38,084 nt of DNA. Origin: an uncultured Erysipelotrichaceae bacterium. GTDB taxonomy: Bacteria; Bacillota_I; Bacilli_A; RFN20; CAG-826. The notes beneath the pieces were generated by a model. That model did no database searches. It was not told where the DNA came from and saw only the letters and a list, made by a program, of their open reading frames with translations. The DNA lies in assembly GCA_902803375.1 (NCBI GenBank), contig CADCPN010000032.1:1-38084 (forward strand). The letters are read 5' to 3'. This document shows positions 5,016 to 11,412 of this stretch, piece by piece (the first letter of the stretch is position 1; each line of letters opens with the position of its first letter). A program made the translations under genes and the position numbers.

Positions 5016-6215
5016 ATGGAAAAAGCAATTGAGCGTTTCCTCGATTACGTCAAAATCGACACCCAATCCGATGACACCTCTGACTCAATCCCAAGCCAAG
5101 ATAAGGAGCTTAACCTCTCCAGAAAGCTCCTCGCCGATCTCAAGGAGATGGGTATCGTTGCCTATCTTGACGAATTCGGAATCGTCTATGGCAAGCTGCA
5201 AGGCGAAGAGGGCCTCGACCCAATCGGCCTCAACGCCCACGTCGACACCGCCCTTGAAATCAGCGGAGCCAACGTCAAGCCGCAGTATATCTCCAACTAC
5301 GATGGCGGCTATATCAAGCTTAACGACGCCTACAAAATGTCCCCAGTCGAATTCCCGACCCTAGGCGCCCACATCGGCGATGACCTTATCGTCACCAGCG
5401 GCGACACCCTTCTAGGGGCCGATGACAAAGCCGGCATCGCCATCATCATGGCCGTCCTCGATCACTACGCCTCCCACCCGGAAGAAAAGCACCACACCAT
5501 CTGCTTCTGCTTCACTCCCGATGAGGAAATCGGGCGTGGCCCGGATCACTTCGACGCCAAGAAGTTCGGCGCCAAATACGCCTACACCATCGATGGCGGC
5601 ATCTATAACGAAATCGCCATCGAAACCTTCAACGCCGCCCATGCCGACATAAAGATCGAAGGCGTCTCCATCCACCCGGGAGAAGCCAAAGGCAAGCTGG
5701 TCAACGCCTCTAACGTCGCCATGGTCTTCGACTCTTATCTTCCCCCAAAGAAGCGTCCGCAGTTCACCGAAGGCCACGAGGGCTTCAACCACCTCGTCGA
5801 GATTTCCGGTGGCGTCGATAACGCGCACATGCATTACATCATCCGCAACCATGACCGCGCTTTGCTTAATGAGCAGAAGAAAGAATTCGAAATCGCCAGG
5901 GAGAAGACCCTCAAGGACTTCCCGACCGCGAAGATCGAGCTCTCCATCGGCGATGATTACCGCAACATGAAGGAAATCCTCGATGAGCAGCCTTCTGCCG
6001 TCTTGACCGCGAAGAAAGCCTTCGCCGAGCTTGGCATCACCCCAGAATTCAATCCGATCCGCGGCGGCACCGATGGCGCCACTTTCTCCTTCAAGGGCTG
6101 CCCGACCCCAAACCTTGGCACCGGCTCCTATAACCACCATGGCCGCTTCGAATATCTCTCCATCAAGGAATTTTTGACCATGATCGAGATCGTAAAGCAG
6201 ATCATGAAGGCTTAA
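5016..6215 (+). CDS. pepT: Peptidase T (tripeptide aminopeptidase, M20B)
   Basis: Cytosolic dizinc aminopeptidase that removes the N-terminal residue from tripeptides. The 399-residue length matches the family (about 408). Metal and catalytic positions are visible: HVDT (H75, D77), GADDKAG (D138 bridging), DEE (D171-E173, catalytic and metal Glu) and the C-terminal His in SYNHHGRFE. The start ATG has AGGAAGG about 11 bases upstream. The gene is monocistronic, with its own promoter and terminator. Together with the pyroglutamyl peptidase and the amino acid transporter in this window, it fits a peptide- and amino-acid-scavenging lifestyle. Confidence 0.95.
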   Translation: MEKAIERFLDYVKIDTQSDDTSDSIPSQDKELNLSRKLLADLKEMGIVAYLDEFGIVYGKLQGEEGLDPIGLNAHVDTALEISGANVKPQYISNYDGGYIKLNDAYKMSPVEFPTLGAHIGDDLIVTSGDTLLGADDKAGIAIIMAVLDHYASHPEEKHHTICFCFTPDEEIGRGPDHFDAKKFGAKYAYTIDGGIYNEIAIETFNAAHADIKIEGVSIHPGEAKGKLVNASNVAMVFDSYLPPKKRPQFTEGHEGFNHLVEISGGVDNAHMHYIIRNHDRALLNEQKKEFEIAREKTLKDFPTAKIELSIGDDYRNMKEILDEQPSAVLTAKKAFAELGITPEFNPIRGGTDGATFSFKGCPTPNLGTGSYNHHGRFEYLSIKEFLTMIEIVKQIMKA

Positions 6216-6241
6216 TTAAGGCAGCAAAAGGAAAAACTTTC

Positions 6242-6276
6242 AGGCGTTCTTCTTAAAAGAAGGCGCCTTTTGTTTT
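6242..6276 (+). terminator. pepT terminator
   Basis: Stem AGGCG..CTTCTT pairs with AAGAAG..CGCCT across a 2-base loop and one small internal loop, followed by TTTTGTTTT. Confidence 0.85.
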
Positions 6277-6296
6277 GGAAAAGAAGCAAAAATCCT

Positions 6297-6324
6297 TTGA
6301 CAAAAACTGTAGCAGCCTTAGATT
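6297..6324 (+). promoter_or_regulatory. Promoter of the Tyr-attenuated ABC transporter operon
   Basis: Perfect -35 TTGACA (6297-6302), 16-base spacer, -10 TAGATT (6319-6324). It reads into the leader peptide at 6351. Confidence 0.75.
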
Positions 6325-6350
6325 TATGCCATCCAAAGGAGGAGAAACGT

Positions 6351-6434
6351 ATGCCAGATTCGATTGTCGTAACTGCCACTAAGTCCTTCTGCGGATTCTA
6401 TTATTACTATTACGGACTGGACATCGTTTCCTGA
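6351..6434 (+). CDS. Tyrosine-rich leader peptide (27 aa)
   Basis: Short ORF with its own strong ribosome site (AAAGGAGGAG, 6335-6344) and an ATG 6 bases later, ending in TGA. It contains FCGFYYYYYG: five consecutive Tyr codons (TAT TAT TAC TAT TAC, residues 17-21) preceded by two Phe in the same stretch. It lies between a promoter and an intrinsic terminator that precedes an ABC transporter operon. This is the classic layout of a ribosome-stalling leader: scarcity of charged tRNA-Tyr would hold the ribosome on the Tyr codons and change downstream RNA folding. The peptide itself probably has no other function. The coding call is strong because of the Shine-Dalgarno and the codon run; the regulatory role is inferred. 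Confidence 0.8.
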   Translation: MPDSIVVTATKSFCGFYYYYYGLDIVS

Positions 6435-6448
6435 CCTTTCGTAATAGT

Positions 6449-6530
6449 TCGGTGGGAAGCGAAATATCGCTAACACCGACAGAAAGAATGAATCTTCCAG
6501 CCAGGTGTTCGCCACCTGGCTTTTGTTTTA
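6449..6530 (+). promoter_or_regulatory. Transcription attenuator (competing hairpins plus terminator)
   Basis: Three alternative pairings are visible. A protector hairpin is closed by TCGGTG (6449-6454) with CACCGA (6474-6479), with AGCGA/TCGCT inside. An antiterminator can form between GGTGGGAAG (6451-6459) and CTTCCAGCC (6494-6502), 8 of 9 positions pairing. The terminator is AGCCAGGTG (6499-6507) with CACCTGGCT (6513-6521), followed by TTTGTTTT. The antiterminator consumes both the protector's 5' arm and the foot of the terminator, so the structures are mutually exclusive. The aggagg ribosome site of the first structural gene begins immediately after the T-run. How a stalled ribosome would disrupt the protector hairpin is not fully resolved by eye. 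Confidence 0.7.
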
Positions 6531-6545
6531 GGAGGAAAAAACATC

Positions 6546-7514
6546 ATGAAAAACAAAGCTCTTTGCCTATGGCCTTGCGCCTTTGCCCTTGCGCTGCTCG
6601 CTTCTTGCGGCAATAGCGAATCCAAAACCCAAGTCGGCATTCTTCAGTTCGGCAGCTTCCAAGCTCTAGAAGAAGCCAAAAGAGGATTCGTCGAAACCTT
6701 AAACGCCTCTATCTTCAAAGATAAGGTTGAGATTGATGTGCAGAACCCGGAGTCTGATAGCGCGACCAACGCATCCATGGCCTCAACGCTTGCCTCAAAG
6801 TCAGACCTCGTCTTCGGCATCGCCACCCCTAGCGCCGTCGCCTTAAAGACCGCGGTCGATAGCTTTGGCTCCAATATCCCGGTCCTTTTCTCCGCGGTCA
6901 CCAATCCCGTTGGCGCAAACCTCGTGAATAGCCTTGAAAGCAGCGGCAATAACGTCACGGGCGTCACCGATTTAGGCGATATCGCTAAAGGGCTAAGCAT
7001 CCTAGAGCAATTCAACGTCGATAACGTCGTCTCCTTCTTCACATCCACCGAGACCAATAGCGTCTACCAGGCTTCGATCGCCGAAAAGTGGATGGATGCC
7101 AAAGGATGGGAGCATTCCAGGAAGACCATCACTAGCGCCTCAGAGATCTCTCTCGCTCTTGCCTCTATCCCCGGCTCTGTCGATGCCGTCTTCCTCCCTA
7201 CCGACGACACGATTGCCAATTCCATTGCAATGGTCAAGGCGGCAAATGAATCAAGAGCCAACCCGCTAGTCATCTTTGGCTGCGACGTTGGCATGATTGG
7301 TGGCGTCACCTTCGCCCTTGGCGTCGACTACTTCGAATGCGGCGTCCAGGCTGGCAAGCAGGCCATAGAGATCCTTAATGGAAAAAAGCCGTCGGAGATC
7401 GCCGTGGAGAGTTGCGACAAAAGCGCAATCAGCATCAATAAGACCGGAGCCGAATCCTTGGGCATCGCCATTCCAGAGTCGATATTAGCAATCGAAGGCG
7501 CGGAGATTCAATAA
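6546..7514 (+). CDS. ABC transporter substrate-binding lipoprotein (TrpX/ABC_sub_bind family)
   Basis: Membrane-anchored binding protein of the PF04392 type (TrpX-like), which captures the substrate for the adjacent permease. The signal peptide ends at the lipobox LLASC (Cys21). Mature domains follow the usual two-lobed fold: VGILQFGSFQALEEAKRG at the start, LVFGIATPSAVALK near 95, VPVLFSAVTNP-like (here IPVLFSAVTNP) near 115, and VDAVFLPTDDTIANS near 220. Length 322 is typical. It has a strong aggagg ribosome site. It is followed after 6 bases by the permease. The Tyr-codon leader upstream suggests tyrosine or a related aromatic compound as substrate. TrpX homologues in streptococci are linked to tryptophan, so I leave the gene symbol empty. 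Confidence 0.85.
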   Translation: MKNKALCLWPCAFALALLASCGNSESKTQVGILQFGSFQALEEAKRGFVETLNASIFKDKVEIDVQNPESDSATNASMASTLASKSDLVFGIATPSAVALKTAVDSFGSNIPVLFSAVTNPVGANLVNSLESSGNNVTGVTDLGDIAKGLSILEQFNVDNVVSFFTSTETNSVYQASIAEKWMDAKGWEHSRKTITSASEISLALASIPGSVDAVFLPTDDTIANSIAMVKAANESRANPLVIFGCDVGMIGGVTFALGVDYFECGVQAGKQAIEILNGKKPSEIAVESCDKSAISINKTGAESLGIAIPESILAIEGAEIQ

Positions 7515-7520
7515 ACGATT

Positions 7521-8525
7521 ATGGGCAGTGGCGAACTTCTTTCCTTCTTCCTTAACCCATGGGTCAATGGCCTGATTTTGGGGCTGCTCGTACTTGGTGT
7601 CTTCCTTTCTTTCCGCATCCTAGATATCGCTGACCTCAGCGTCGAAGGCATCTTGCCGCTTATCACCTTGCTTAGCTGCGTATTGATCAACTCCGGGGTT
7701 AACTCATGGCTGGTGCTCCTTATCTCCATCGGCATCGGCGCGCTTTGCGGCGTGCTCAATAGCCTTCTTACCATCTATTTGAAAACGCCTCCTCTTCTTA
7801 GCGGCATCATCGTGATGGCCTTAACCTTCGGCTTGGGCATCATGATCAACTCGATGCATAACGGCTCTGTTACCATCGATTCGGGCAAAAGCACGGTCTT
7901 CAGCGGGCTATCCTCTTTGCTAAGAGGGTTTAGCAGCGACAGGATGTGGCTAGTCGCGGCAAGCTACCTAAGTTACATCTTGCTTAGCCTTCTTCTCGTT
8001 GCCCTGCTCGGCGCCGTCCTCTACTTCTTCTTCGGCACCGAGTTCGGCATGAGCATCCGCGCCTGCGGCAAAAACAAAGCCATGTCTAGGGCGAATGGCA
8101 TCAACGTCAACCTCATGGTAACATTTGGCCTTGCGATCTCCGGCGCCTTAATCGGCTTGGCCTCCAGCCTATATGGCCAGCATAACCAGATGGGCTTGCC
8201 AACCGATGGCCAGGGCATGATCGTCATCGGGCTTAGCGCCTTATTCCTAGGAGAAGCGATATTTGGGACAAGCAGCTTCAAGAAGAGCCTTATCTCCGCC
8301 ATTGTCGGCTCGCTTCTATACTGGTACCTCATCCAGATTCTCACCAAGCTTGACAATAACGGCTACATGCTTAGCGTCTATAAGGCGATTCTGCTCGTGC
8401 TAGTGATCTTCTTGAAGACCCTAGTGAGCTTCCTAAAGAAGAAAAAAGGCGGTAACCCCACCTCCCTTAAAGAAAGCCTAAGCAAACACATCAGCGGAAA
8501 GGAGAAAGACGATGCTAGAGCTTAA
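7521..8525 (+). CDS. ABC transporter permease (TrpY-like, BPD_transp_2)
   Basis: Integral membrane subunit forming the translocation channel for the neighbouring binding protein and ATPase. About eight to nine hydrophobic helices are visible over 334 residues. Conserved family pieces are LSFRILDIADLSVEG near residue 30, FGTEFGMSIRACGKN near 175 (the coupling loop that contacts the ATPase) and a GLSALFLGEAIFG block near 235. The C-terminus is a Lys-rich cytosolic tail. The start follows the binding protein stop by 6 bases, and the end overlaps the ATPase start by 14 bases, so translation is probably coupled. It is regulated with the operon through the upstream attenuator. Confidence 0.88.
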   Translation: MGSGELLSFFLNPWVNGLILGLLVLGVFLSFRILDIADLSVEGILPLITLLSCVLINSGVNSWLVLLISIGIGALCGVLNSLLTIYLKTPPLLSGIIVMALTFGLGIMINSMHNGSVTIDSGKSTVFSGLSSLLRGFSSDRMWLVAASYLSYILLSLLLVALLGAVLYFFFGTEFGMSIRACGKNKAMSRANGINVNLMVTFGLAISGALIGLASSLYGQHNQMGLPTDGQGMIVIGLSALFLGEAIFGTSSFKKSLISAIVGSLLYWYLIQILTKLDNNGYMLSVYKAILLVLVIFLKTLVSFLKKKKGGNPTSLKESLSKHISGKEKDDARA

Positions 8526-9297
8526 TGACGTCTCCAAGACGTTCCATATCAATAGCAACCCCCTTGATGACAAGCTAGCCCTTGATCACGTTAGCTTCTC
8601 TCTAGGCGAGGGCGACTTCATCTCGCTCATCGGCAGCAACGGGTCCGGCAAATCCACATTGCTTAACCTTATCGCCGGCAGCGTATCCCCCGATTCTGGC
8701 TCCATCATCTTAGAGGGGAATGACATCACCCATCAGAAGGAGCACGAGCGCGCGAAAGCCATCGGCAGGGTATTCCAGGACCCGAGCAAAGGCACGATCG
8801 CGGACATCTCCCTGTTTGAGAACATGTCGATCGCCTCTAGGAGAGGGAAGAGGCAATCCCCGTTCCGCTGGGCGTTATCCAAAGCCAAGAAGAAAGAGTT
8901 CCAGCAGGTGCTTGCCCCATTAGGCTTAGGCCTAGAGAATAGACTTAACGCACCCATGGGCGCCTTCTCCGGCGGCCAAAGGCAGTCGGTGACCCTCCTT
9001 ATGGCCGCGAGTAACAAGCCTAAGGTACTGCTTCTAGATGAGCATACGGCGGCGTTAGACCCAAAAACGGCCAAGACCGTGATGGAATTAACCGACAAGA
9101 TCGTCAAAGAGAACCATATCCCGACTTTGATGATCACCCACAACATGAAGGATGCCCTAAAGTATGGCAACCGCCTCGTGATGATGAGCGGGGGACATAT
9201 CGTTTTCCAGGCAAACGAAGAGGAAAAGAAAAAGCTCACGGTCAATGACTTAGTGGAGCTCTTCTCCAAATTCGAGGAGGGAGCCTTGGCCGAATAG
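8512..9297 (+). CDS. ABC transporter ATP-binding protein (TrpZ-like)
   Basis: Cytosolic ATPase that energises the amino acid transporter encoded just upstream. Walker A is GSNGSGKST (41-49), the Q-loop is VFQDPSKGT near residue 90, the signature is the variant FSGGQ, and Walker B is VLLLDE followed by HTAALDPK. His in place of the common Pro after the catalytic Glu is usual in this subfamily. The H-loop is ITHNMKDAL. Length 261 is normal. Its start lies inside the 3' end of the permease gene. Its stop TAG is one base from the stop of the convergent patatin gene, with no visible terminator between them. Confidence 0.9.
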   Translation: MLELNDVSKTFHINSNPLDDKLALDHVSFSLGEGDFISLIGSNGSGKSTLLNLIAGSVSPDSGSIILEGNDITHQKEHERAKAIGRVFQDPSKGTIADISLFENMSIASRRGKRQSPFRWALSKAKKKEFQQVLAPLGLGLENRLNAPMGAFSGGQRQSVTLLMAASNKPKVLLLDEHTAALDPKTAKTVMELTDKIVKENHIPTLMITHNMKDALKYGNRLVMMSGGHIVFQANEEEKKKLTVNDLVELFSKFEEGALAE

Positions 9298-9298
9298 C

Positions 9299-10537
9299 CT
9301 AGGCTTCCTTTTCTTTTTTGTTGATGCCGTTTAGGAGGTATTTCGTAAGCAATGGGCGGCCAGAGGGGGTCGTCAGCTTCAGATACTTGCTGCCAAACTC
9401 GATGAGGAACTTTGTTTTGATGGCGCGCCTTTTCGTGCTGATGTCGGATGTGACGGATTGGAAGGTCCTTGAGAGGAAGCCTTGGTTGGCCTTCTTCTGC
9501 TTGATGGCTTCCCTTAGCCTAGAGGCGAATTCCTCCATCGTGAAGCAATCATAATAGTCCTTCATATCGAGTCGGATGGCGATGTCCTCCATCGCGCGGA
9601 CGAAGTAATCCTTTTCGTCCATCACCCAGTGGGAGTCTTTCTTCAGCTCATCGAGAATCCATTCGGAGTCGGTGCCATATTCATGGATGAGATCAGCCAA
9701 AAATCCAGAACTGGGAATCTCGCCTTGGAAGCAGAAATAGAAGCCCCGGTACTTCTTGAAGAACTTCATGGTGTCCAGATAGCCTAGCTTCATGTACTTC
9801 TGGATGCTCTCTTGCGAGAAATCGACCATCGACCCCAAAGGGATATAGGGGGCGATGTAGCTAACGTTGGGAAGTGTGAGGAAGAATCGGTTCTGCGGCT
9901 TCAAAGAGAATAGCCTCATATCGATGGCGATGACCTCATCGGCACCAAGCTTAAAGGCAAGGCGAATCGGAAGGTTGTCGTTAAAGAAGCCATCGATGTA
10001 GCGCTTGCCATCGATGATCTCAGGGGGGAATATCGGGGTGCAGGCGCTAGAGGCGTGAAGGAAAGGGAGGAACTTATCCTTATCGACTTCCTTCATATTC
10101 ACGTCGACGAGCTTCATCGAAGGGAAAGAAGTCGTGACGACGCCGAATTCCATATCGGAATTCAAGGCAGCATCCACGTCAAGTGCGTCTTTGATGTACT
10201 CCTTAAAGGGAGTGATATCGGCAGAGAGGCCGTTTTTGAAATAGGTCCAATACCACTTGTTGAATTCCTTGGTGGTGTTGAGGCTCGGGTTAGTGAGTAG
10301 CTTTTTGGAGATATCCACGCCATTGACCATTACTTTGTCGGCGGTGATGTTGCTCCAAAGGGGACGAAGCCTTTTGGCGGCGTGGCTTGCGAGGAAGGCG
10401 CCATTGAGGGCGCCGATGCTCGTGCCGCTAACGACATCGAAATGAAAGCCAAGCTCCTCTAAGGCCTCAATCGCGCCGACTTCATAGGAGCCTAATGCCC
10501 CTCCGCCCGCCAGGGCGAGGCCTAGCTTCTGTCCCAT
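9299..10537 (-). CDS. Patatin-like phospholipase A
   Basis: Predicted Ser-Asp dyad lipid acyl hydrolase. The N-terminus has the glycine-rich oxyanion loop AGGGALG (10-16) and the nucleophile elbow GTSIG (Ser40). The dyad Asp is in RYIDGFFNDNLP near residue 180. Residues beyond about 300 form a basic C-terminal extension of unknown function (TKRRAIKTKFL). There is no signal peptide, so it acts inside the cell, probably at the membrane. It is the last gene of a three-gene operon and overlaps the preceding patatin gene by 16 bases. Likely substrates are membrane phospholipids; this is family knowledge, not something seen here. Confidence 0.85.
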   Translation of the reverse strand: MGQKLGLALAGGGALGSYEVGAIEALEELGFHFDVVSGTSIGALNGAFLASHAAKRLRPLWSNITADKVMVNGVDISKKLLTNPSLNTTKEFNKWYWTYFKNGLSADITPFKEYIKDALDVDAALNSDMEFGVVTTSFPSMKLVDVNMKEVDKDKFLPFLHASSACTPIFPPEIIDGKRYIDGFFNDNLPIRLAFKLGADEVIAIDMRLFSLKPQNRFFLTLPNVSYIAPYIPLGSMVDFSQESIQKYMKLGYLDTMKFFKKYRGFYFCFQGEIPSSGFLADLIHEYGTDSEWILDELKKDSHWVMDEKDYFVRAMEDIAIRLDMKDYYDCFTMEEFASRLREAIKQKKANQGFLSRTFQSVTSDISTKRRAIKTKFLIEFGSKYLKLTTPSGRPLLTKYLLNGINKKEKEA

Positions 10538-11412
10538 GAATCCTCCTTGACGCGATATAGCGCGTTCAAGATATCGACTAAGCTCATCAGGCCGTCGCCA
10601 TTCTTGATATGGCGGGCATGCATCTTCGCATTGGTATATTCGTAGCAGCGCTTCTGCACTCTTTCGTAGTCGAAGTCGCCATCAAGGAAAATTGCGTCCG
10701 CGAATTCTTTGCCAGCCACCGTCGCCTTTTCGATCATATAGATGAAGTTCTCCCTAGAAAGAGAGAAGGAAGTGACTTTCTTATCGAGGCTAAGCGTAAC
10801 GTCGGCATCGACGATGACGGTATTCTTCTTCGCCTCGTAAAGCTCGGCGGGCGGATAGTACTTCGGGTAGCAATGAAGGATGATGATCATGTCCACGTCG
10901 AAGTAATTCATGGGGTAGGTGGGCACGTTATCGGTGGCGCCGCCATCGATGTAGATGCCGCCGTTGAAGCGATGAGGACCGTTTATCAATGGGAAAGCCA
11001 TGGAGACGTTAATGGCTTTCTTGATGTCGCTTCGCGGCATCTTGTTGAGGCAGAAATAATGGGGGACGAGCTGAAAGATCTTGGTGCCGGAGACGTAGAC
11101 CGGCATCAGCATTTGCTTGCCTTCGACCTGTTTGAAGATTGAGTTGAAAAGGCCGCGGCGGATCTGCTTCATGAAGGCGAATTTGTCATCCGCGTCGATG
11201 TTCTTATAGGCATAGAGCATCTGATCGATGTGGTTGCAGCTCGTGGCGTAGGCGTTTAAGGCGCCGATAGAGGAGGCGGAGATGACCGCCACCTTGTCCA
11301 TGCCGATCTTCTCGATGATCTGCTTGGCATAGGCAAGCTCGGCGGCACCTCTAGCTAGGCCGCCGGAGTAGACGAGTCCAATCTTTTTTATCTGCCTTCT
11401 CTCACTGCCCAT
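10522..11412 (-). CDS. Second patatin-like protein with altered nucleophile elbow
   Basis: Patatin-fold protein of 296 residues: loop SGGLARG (16-22), then SASSIG where GxSxG is expected. Ser48 is present but the first Gly is replaced by Ala46. The dyad Asp is in YIDGGATDNVP near residue 165. It resembles the RssA-like group more than its downstream neighbour does. It overlaps the zinc-ribbon gene by 11 bases upstream and the other patatin gene by 16 bases downstream, so the three are translated together. It may still be active, because Gly-to-Ala is a mild change, or it may partner the second lipase. The substrate is unknown. Confidence 0.75.
   Translation of the reverse strand: MGSERRQIKKIGLVYSGGLARGAAELAYAKQIIEKIGMDKVAVISASSIGALNAYATSCNHIDQMLYAYKNIDADDKFAFMKQIRRGLFNSIFKQVEGKQMLMPVYVSGTKIFQLVPHYFCLNKMPRSDIKKAINVSMAFPLINGPHRFNGGIYIDGGATDNVPTYPMNYFDVDMIIILHCYPKYYPPAELYEAKKNTVIVDADVTLSLDKKVTSFSLSRENFIYMIEKATVAGKEFADAIFLDGDFDYERVQKRCYEYTNAKMHARHIKNGDGLMSLVDILNALYRVKEDSWDRS

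Follow-up and report, generated by a model that had tools for sequence, protein, structure and literature searches.

What substrate does the TrpX-like ABC transporter encoded at this locus carry, and how is its expression controlled? The window (the whole stretch of DNA that was analysed, 38,084 nucleotides) comes from a member of the class Bacilli that lives in the gut. An initial annotation, made from the letters alone, proposed that the transporter genes are preceded by a leader peptide rich in Tyr codons and by an attenuator. The promoter, the 27-codon ORF with its strong ribosome site, the five Tyr codons following two Phe codons, the terminator and the transporter genes are all found where that annotation placed them (Table 1). 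As judged from the sequence comparisons described here, the locus is very probably a ribosome-mediated transcription attenuator of the his-operon type, which senses the charging of tyrosyl-tRNA and controls a tyrosine ABC importer.

Organisation of the locus

Table 1. Positions of the leader, attenuator and transporter features within the window.
Feature	Position	Strand	Basis
Sigma-70-type promoter, TTGACA-16-TAGATT	6297-6324	+	Sequence scan; TTGACA also in orthologues
Shine-Dalgarno of leader ORF, AAAGGAGG, AGGAGG core	6337-6344	+	Sequence
Leader peptide ORF, 27 codons, ATG at 6351, MPDSIVVTATKSFCGFYYYYYGLDIVS-stop	6351-6434	+	ORF, conservation
Phe codons of leader ORF	6387-6389 and 6396-6398	+	Sequence
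Five consecutive Tyr codons, proposed stall site	6399-6413	+	Only run of five TAY codons in genome
Segment 1, 5' arm of helix A, overlaps Tyr codons	6406-6420	+	Own versus swapped, p = 5e-5
Segment 2, 5' arm of helix B, overlaps stop codon	6425-6436	+	Swap test
Segment 2, 3' arm of helix A	6435-6448	+	Folding, swap test
Helix C, protector hairpin, 6449-6461 with 6468-6479	6449-6479	+	Folding, swap test, covariation
Segment 3, 3' arm of helix B	6451-6461	+	Swap test
Segment 4, 5' arm of antiterminator helix D (AACACC)	6472-6477	+	Swap test, covariation
Intrinsic terminator T, stem 6499-6507 with 6513-6521, U-rich tail	6499-6529	+	Folding, scan, covariation
3' arm of antiterminator helix D (GGTGTT), within 5' half of terminator	6504-6509	+	Swap test, covariation
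Substrate-binding lipoprotein, TrpX-like (PF04392), Asp/Tyr pocket, predicted tyrosine-binding	6546-7514	+	
ABC permease (PF02653)	7521-8525	+	Domain match
ABC ATPase (PF00005)	8512-9297	+	Domain match

Orthologues L002-L007 and L010 have the TTGACA element at the same place 5' of their leader ORFs, and a Shine-Dalgarno sequence precedes the leader ORF in most of the genus-level orthologues; it is on this ribosome site and on conservation that the predicted translation of the ORF rests. The run of five TAY codons occurs once in the 1.67 Mb genome, namely in this leader. The terminator lies between the leader ORF and the first gene, and is followed by a Shine-Dalgarno sequence (AGGAGG) and then by the start codon of the gene for the substrate-binding protein (SBP). 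The TGA that closes the leader is taken as a stop, because several orthologues have TAA or TAG at the equivalent place; reading it as Trp, which would extend the leader through the hairpins, was rejected.

As to the surroundings, a gene for peptidase T (tripeptide aminopeptidase, 5016-6215) lies directly upstream on the same strand. Two adjacent and overlapping genes for patatin-like phospholipases (9299-10537 and 10522-11412) are found on the minus strand.

Conservation of the leader peptide

Queries with single proteins against the genome and viral contigs gave no relatives of the SBP, which were found with an alignment as query. The SBP or a relative is present in 10 of the 31 genomes of the genus and in 91 of the 279 genomes of the order. 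Upstream of the SBP relatives across the order, a short Tyr/Phe-rich leader ORF, defined by a score of six aromatic residues in nine, is present in 78 of 93 regions; 0.5 would be expected from dinucleotide shuffles, and the reverse strand has 2. Summed over these leaders there are 421 Tyr codons, 213 Phe codons and a single Trp codon, with both TAT and TAC used for Tyr, and Tyr outnumbers Phe in 68 of the 78. Examples from orthologues are MKQSMIQHMRRSTGFYYYYYYYR, MKEVIKPKIINHSGFYYYFSYYYR and MKRAFYYFYSYYYPRGNQ, each followed by a stop codon, and MQKLSKTTKYFNESVSYYYYYYYYLREN... The comparison of relatives' leaders, which the initial annotation had proposed as a check, bears out its reading: across many genera of the order, the genes for related SBPs are preceded by conserved runs of Tyr codons, and mutually exclusive hairpins covary.

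Since the leader ORF is conserved, the site stands beyond chance, and a chance ORF is ruled out by its presence in so many of the regions. The wider proposal, that an ordinary terminator happens to follow a chance short ORF and that nothing is regulated, draws on terminator scans, in which about 0.4 such sites are expected per shuffled region; with a Tyr-rich ORF conserved throughout the order, and with covarying exclusive helices, we regard it as extremely improbable. The leader RNA is also more stably folded than its dinucleotide shuffles (z = -3.3; 1 of 200 shuffles).

Many of the leaders (L002-L010, and the streptococcal L132-L142) end in an aromatic residue, Arg and a stop codon (YYYR-stop, YFR-stop), and this in distant genera. 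This ending may reflect pairing of the Arg codon (AGG or AGA) in helix A, or it may have a cause at the level of the peptide. TnaC senses tryptophan as an arrest peptide, and one could imagine that here too the growing peptide responds to free tyrosine, or to some other small molecule, and not to tRNA charging. The regularity of the Arg-stop endings would fit such a proposal, but we consider it very unlikely. The number and position of the Tyr codons vary freely and the remainder of the peptide is unconserved; the Arg codon lies inside helix A, where RNA pairing can explain it; and the leader in the window has no terminal Arg. With so few other features common to the leader peptides, codon-dependent stalling fits better than a specific arrest peptide.

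Base pairing in the leader RNA

Base pairing was analysed in 11 orthologues, some from the genus itself and the others from two genera close to it. In all of these, from the Tyr codons through the terminator, the RNA is made up of six segments, each of which is complementary to the next. This produces five overlapping helices, supported by covariation: A (segments 1:2), B (2:3), C (3:4), D (4:5) and T (5:6). When duplex energies of segments from the same species were compared with those of segments swapped between species, the species' own pairs were better in each of the five helices (p = 5e-5 in every case, 0 of 20000 permutations, with hand-picked segments and permutations that ignore relatedness). 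For the non-neighbouring control pairs 1:3, 2:4, 1:4, 2:5 and 1:5, own pairs were no better than swapped ones in the same 11 orthologues.

A MAFFT alignment gives a similar result. In the structure composed of A, C and T, two-sided base changes are seen at 18 pairs (0 of 500 shuffles), and the structure composed of B and D has a raised covariation score (0 of 500 shuffles). Both structures exceed shuffled partners, and also partners slid by one to three columns, so that covariation supports an antiterminator exclusive of the terminator. Helices A and B in the window are placed slightly off the genus consensus. An apparent pairing of segments 3 and 6 is treated as a by-product, because segments 3, 4, 5 and 6 are successive complements.

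These results uphold the mutually exclusive pairings of the initial annotation but replace its antiterminator. It had paired 6451-6459 with 6494-6502, a helix that can form in the window (8 of 9 pairs, -9.7 kcal/mol) and that is unconserved in relatives, where own pairs (-6.5) do no better than swapped pairs (-6.7; p = 0.69). From the sequence comparison, the antiterminator is a two-step switch, in which helix B frees helix D.

Proposed mechanism

In the his operon attenuator, a run of cognate codons is followed by RNA that can form either three successive hairpins (off) or two alternative ones (on), with an intrinsic terminator as the last hairpin. A similar course of events is proposed here, with A, C and T as the off state and B and D as the on state. 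When charged Tyr-tRNA is ample, the ribosome would reach the stop codon at 6432 and cover segment 2, so that helix C could form and the terminator would end transcription. In the absence of translation, A, C and T would form, and the operon would likewise be off. When charged Tyr-tRNA is scarce, we infer that the ribosome would wait on the run of Tyr codons, blocking segment 1 and leaving segment 2 free; segment 2 would then pair with segment 3, segment 4 would be free to take the 5' arm of the terminator, and with D formed the transporter genes would be transcribed.

Folding calculations agree with the on state: when the RNA is folded as far as the terminator loop with a ribosome placed on the middle Tyr codon, helices B and D form, both for the window and for most of its orthologues. 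At equilibrium, the terminator prevails in nearly all orthologues whatever the state of the ribosome, and when the ribosome stands at the stop codon, D is often still a stronger pairing than C, leaving several orthologues with no clean off state. Because equilibrium folding alone gives no clean off state, the off state would rest on the order of folding, with C presumably forming before D, as expected during transcription.

Substrate of the transporter

The nearest homologue of the window SBP with a solved structure is CD0873 of Clostridioides difficile (PDB 6hni; E = 1e-42). CD0873 has been shown to bind tyrosine: its Glu263 makes contact with the hydroxyl group and its Tyr279 keeps tryptophan out; the paper describes no leader (PMC6816091). 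At these two positions the window SBP has Asp and Tyr. Its pocket therefore resembles that of CD0873 in having an acidic residue and a Tyr, and differs in that the acidic residue is Asp and not Glu; it is accordingly a predicted tyrosine binder. The same combination, Tyr with either Asp or Glu, is found in every SBP examined from the order whose gene follows a Tyr leader, and elsewhere the residues are Ala/Gln in SP1069 (Trp) and Ala/Tyr in VC_1101 (Phe). The pocket thus gives independent support to the suggestion in the initial annotation that tyrosine is the likely substrate. Against the model for the tryptophan SBP TrpX (NF041285) the window SBP scores 213 bits, below the curated cut-off of 390 bits; it is a homologue of TrpX, and not an equivalog. 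The host genome (88.5% complete) gave no match to a prephenate dehydrogenase domain, from which it follows that the host probably imports tyrosine.

T-boxes in the host and its relatives

Neither a T-box (RF00230) nor any other Rfam family matches at 6200-6600. None of the Rfam amino-acid leaders (His, Leu, Thr, Trp and others) is found at gathering score, and the whole window matched only a tRNA. The T-box model does match elsewhere in the host genome, upstream of a MetN-type ABC operon, valS, pheST, thrS and ileS (identities read from translations); these matches score below the Rfam gathering score but have E values of 1e-12 to 7e-21. It also matches at paralogues. In the same genus, the selectivity position is occupied by Ala or Val in a second TrpX-like paralogue (loci L019, L020 and L021): L020 and L021, with Val/Ala in the pocket, are preceded by T-boxes above the Rfam cut-off, and L019 by a T-box-like sequence. 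This suggests that two tRNA-sensing mechanisms serve two paralogous importers.

It is also possible, though we consider it rather unlikely, that the leader senses Tyr and Phe jointly, as a general measure of aromatic limitation, and that the transporter carries both. Phe makes up one third of the aromatic codons in leaders across the order, Tyr and Phe are equal in 8 of the 78, and streptococcal leaders such as TYFYSYFR have nearly as much Phe as Tyr; with Phe mixed among the Tyr codons in many relatives, the specificity may be for Tyr plus Phe. Set against this are the five Tyr codons after only two Phe codons in the window, the excess of Tyr in most leaders, the acidic residue of the pocket where the hydroxyl of tyrosine is recognised, and the separate T-box of the host pheST. 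We therefore retain tyrosine as the preferred reading.

Distribution of tyrosine leaders

In a profile scan of named genomes, the relatives fall among uncultured Bacilli of the gut, several apparently from ruminants. Similar leaders occur in streptococci (TYFYSYFR-stop), in Clostridia (Anaerofustis, Eubacteriaceae, Crickella and Peptacetobacter) and in a Leptolinea record. In eight streptococci the same chain of five helices can be drawn, and own pairs are better than swapped ones for A, C, D and T (p = 0.0004 to 0.015), in a test that is weaker because two of its five controls are just under 0.05. For helix B the streptococcal own pairs are no better than swapped ones, since its sequence hardly varies. 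In Halanaerobium, Kocuria and others, no such leader was seen before the tyrosine-type SBPs. Four clostridial Tyr leaders (L162, L174, L184 and L185) run on into tails that contain Cys (for example DRCCTSLD, VECCAANI and KRCTADTL).

We think it probable that these leaders represent a large and unrecognised family of tyrosine attenuators in Bacillota (gut Bacilli, streptococci and Clostridia), with at least one Leptolinea record from Chloroflexota, which commonly controls CD0873-type tyrosine importers, alongside T-boxes on paralogues in the same genome whose pockets are not of the tyrosine type.

Relation to known attenuators

The his attenuator of E. coli and Salmonella (Rfam His_leader, RF00514) has the same architecture of leader peptide, alternative hairpins and terminator. 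It differs in having His codons and a biosynthesis operon, whereas here there are Tyr codons, a transporter and no Rfam sequence match. We know of no leader-peptide attenuator described for tyrosine, and none was found in Rfam or in the full text of open-licence papers. In our judgement the locus is very probably a genuine tyrosine attenuator; its mechanism is a known one, and its amino-acid specificity has apparently not been described before.

The initial annotation placed leader-peptide attenuation mainly outside Firmicutes. This needs correction, as candidate His RNA attenuators have been reported from Firmicutes, including Erysipelotrichales and Peptostreptococcaceae, in 17 genomes (PMC9413887). 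These are likewise leader-peptide systems in Bacillota, but with His codons before his biosynthesis operons, in place of Tyr codons before a TrpX-type importer. Upstream of aroF in Acholeplasma, a relative of Bacilli, the uORFC-13-1 motif (24 sequences) is a candidate Phe-type uORF (PMC8632094); it too is an aromatic leader uORF before a terminator, but with Phe codon(s), a different gene and a different structure. The trpXYZ operon of Streptococcus suis, whose substrate is tryptophan, is a homologous ABC operon in which tRNA charging also acts through termination; there, however, a T-box binds tRNA-Trp directly, with no leader peptide (PMC9382623).

If the proposal is correct, tyrosine would be added to the amino acids of the leader-peptide attenuator class, and leader-peptide attenuation and T-boxes would divide related transporters between them within one genome. 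Current annotation lumps tyrosine and tryptophan importers together as TrpX; leader codons and pocket residues would then provide a sequence rule that separates the two.
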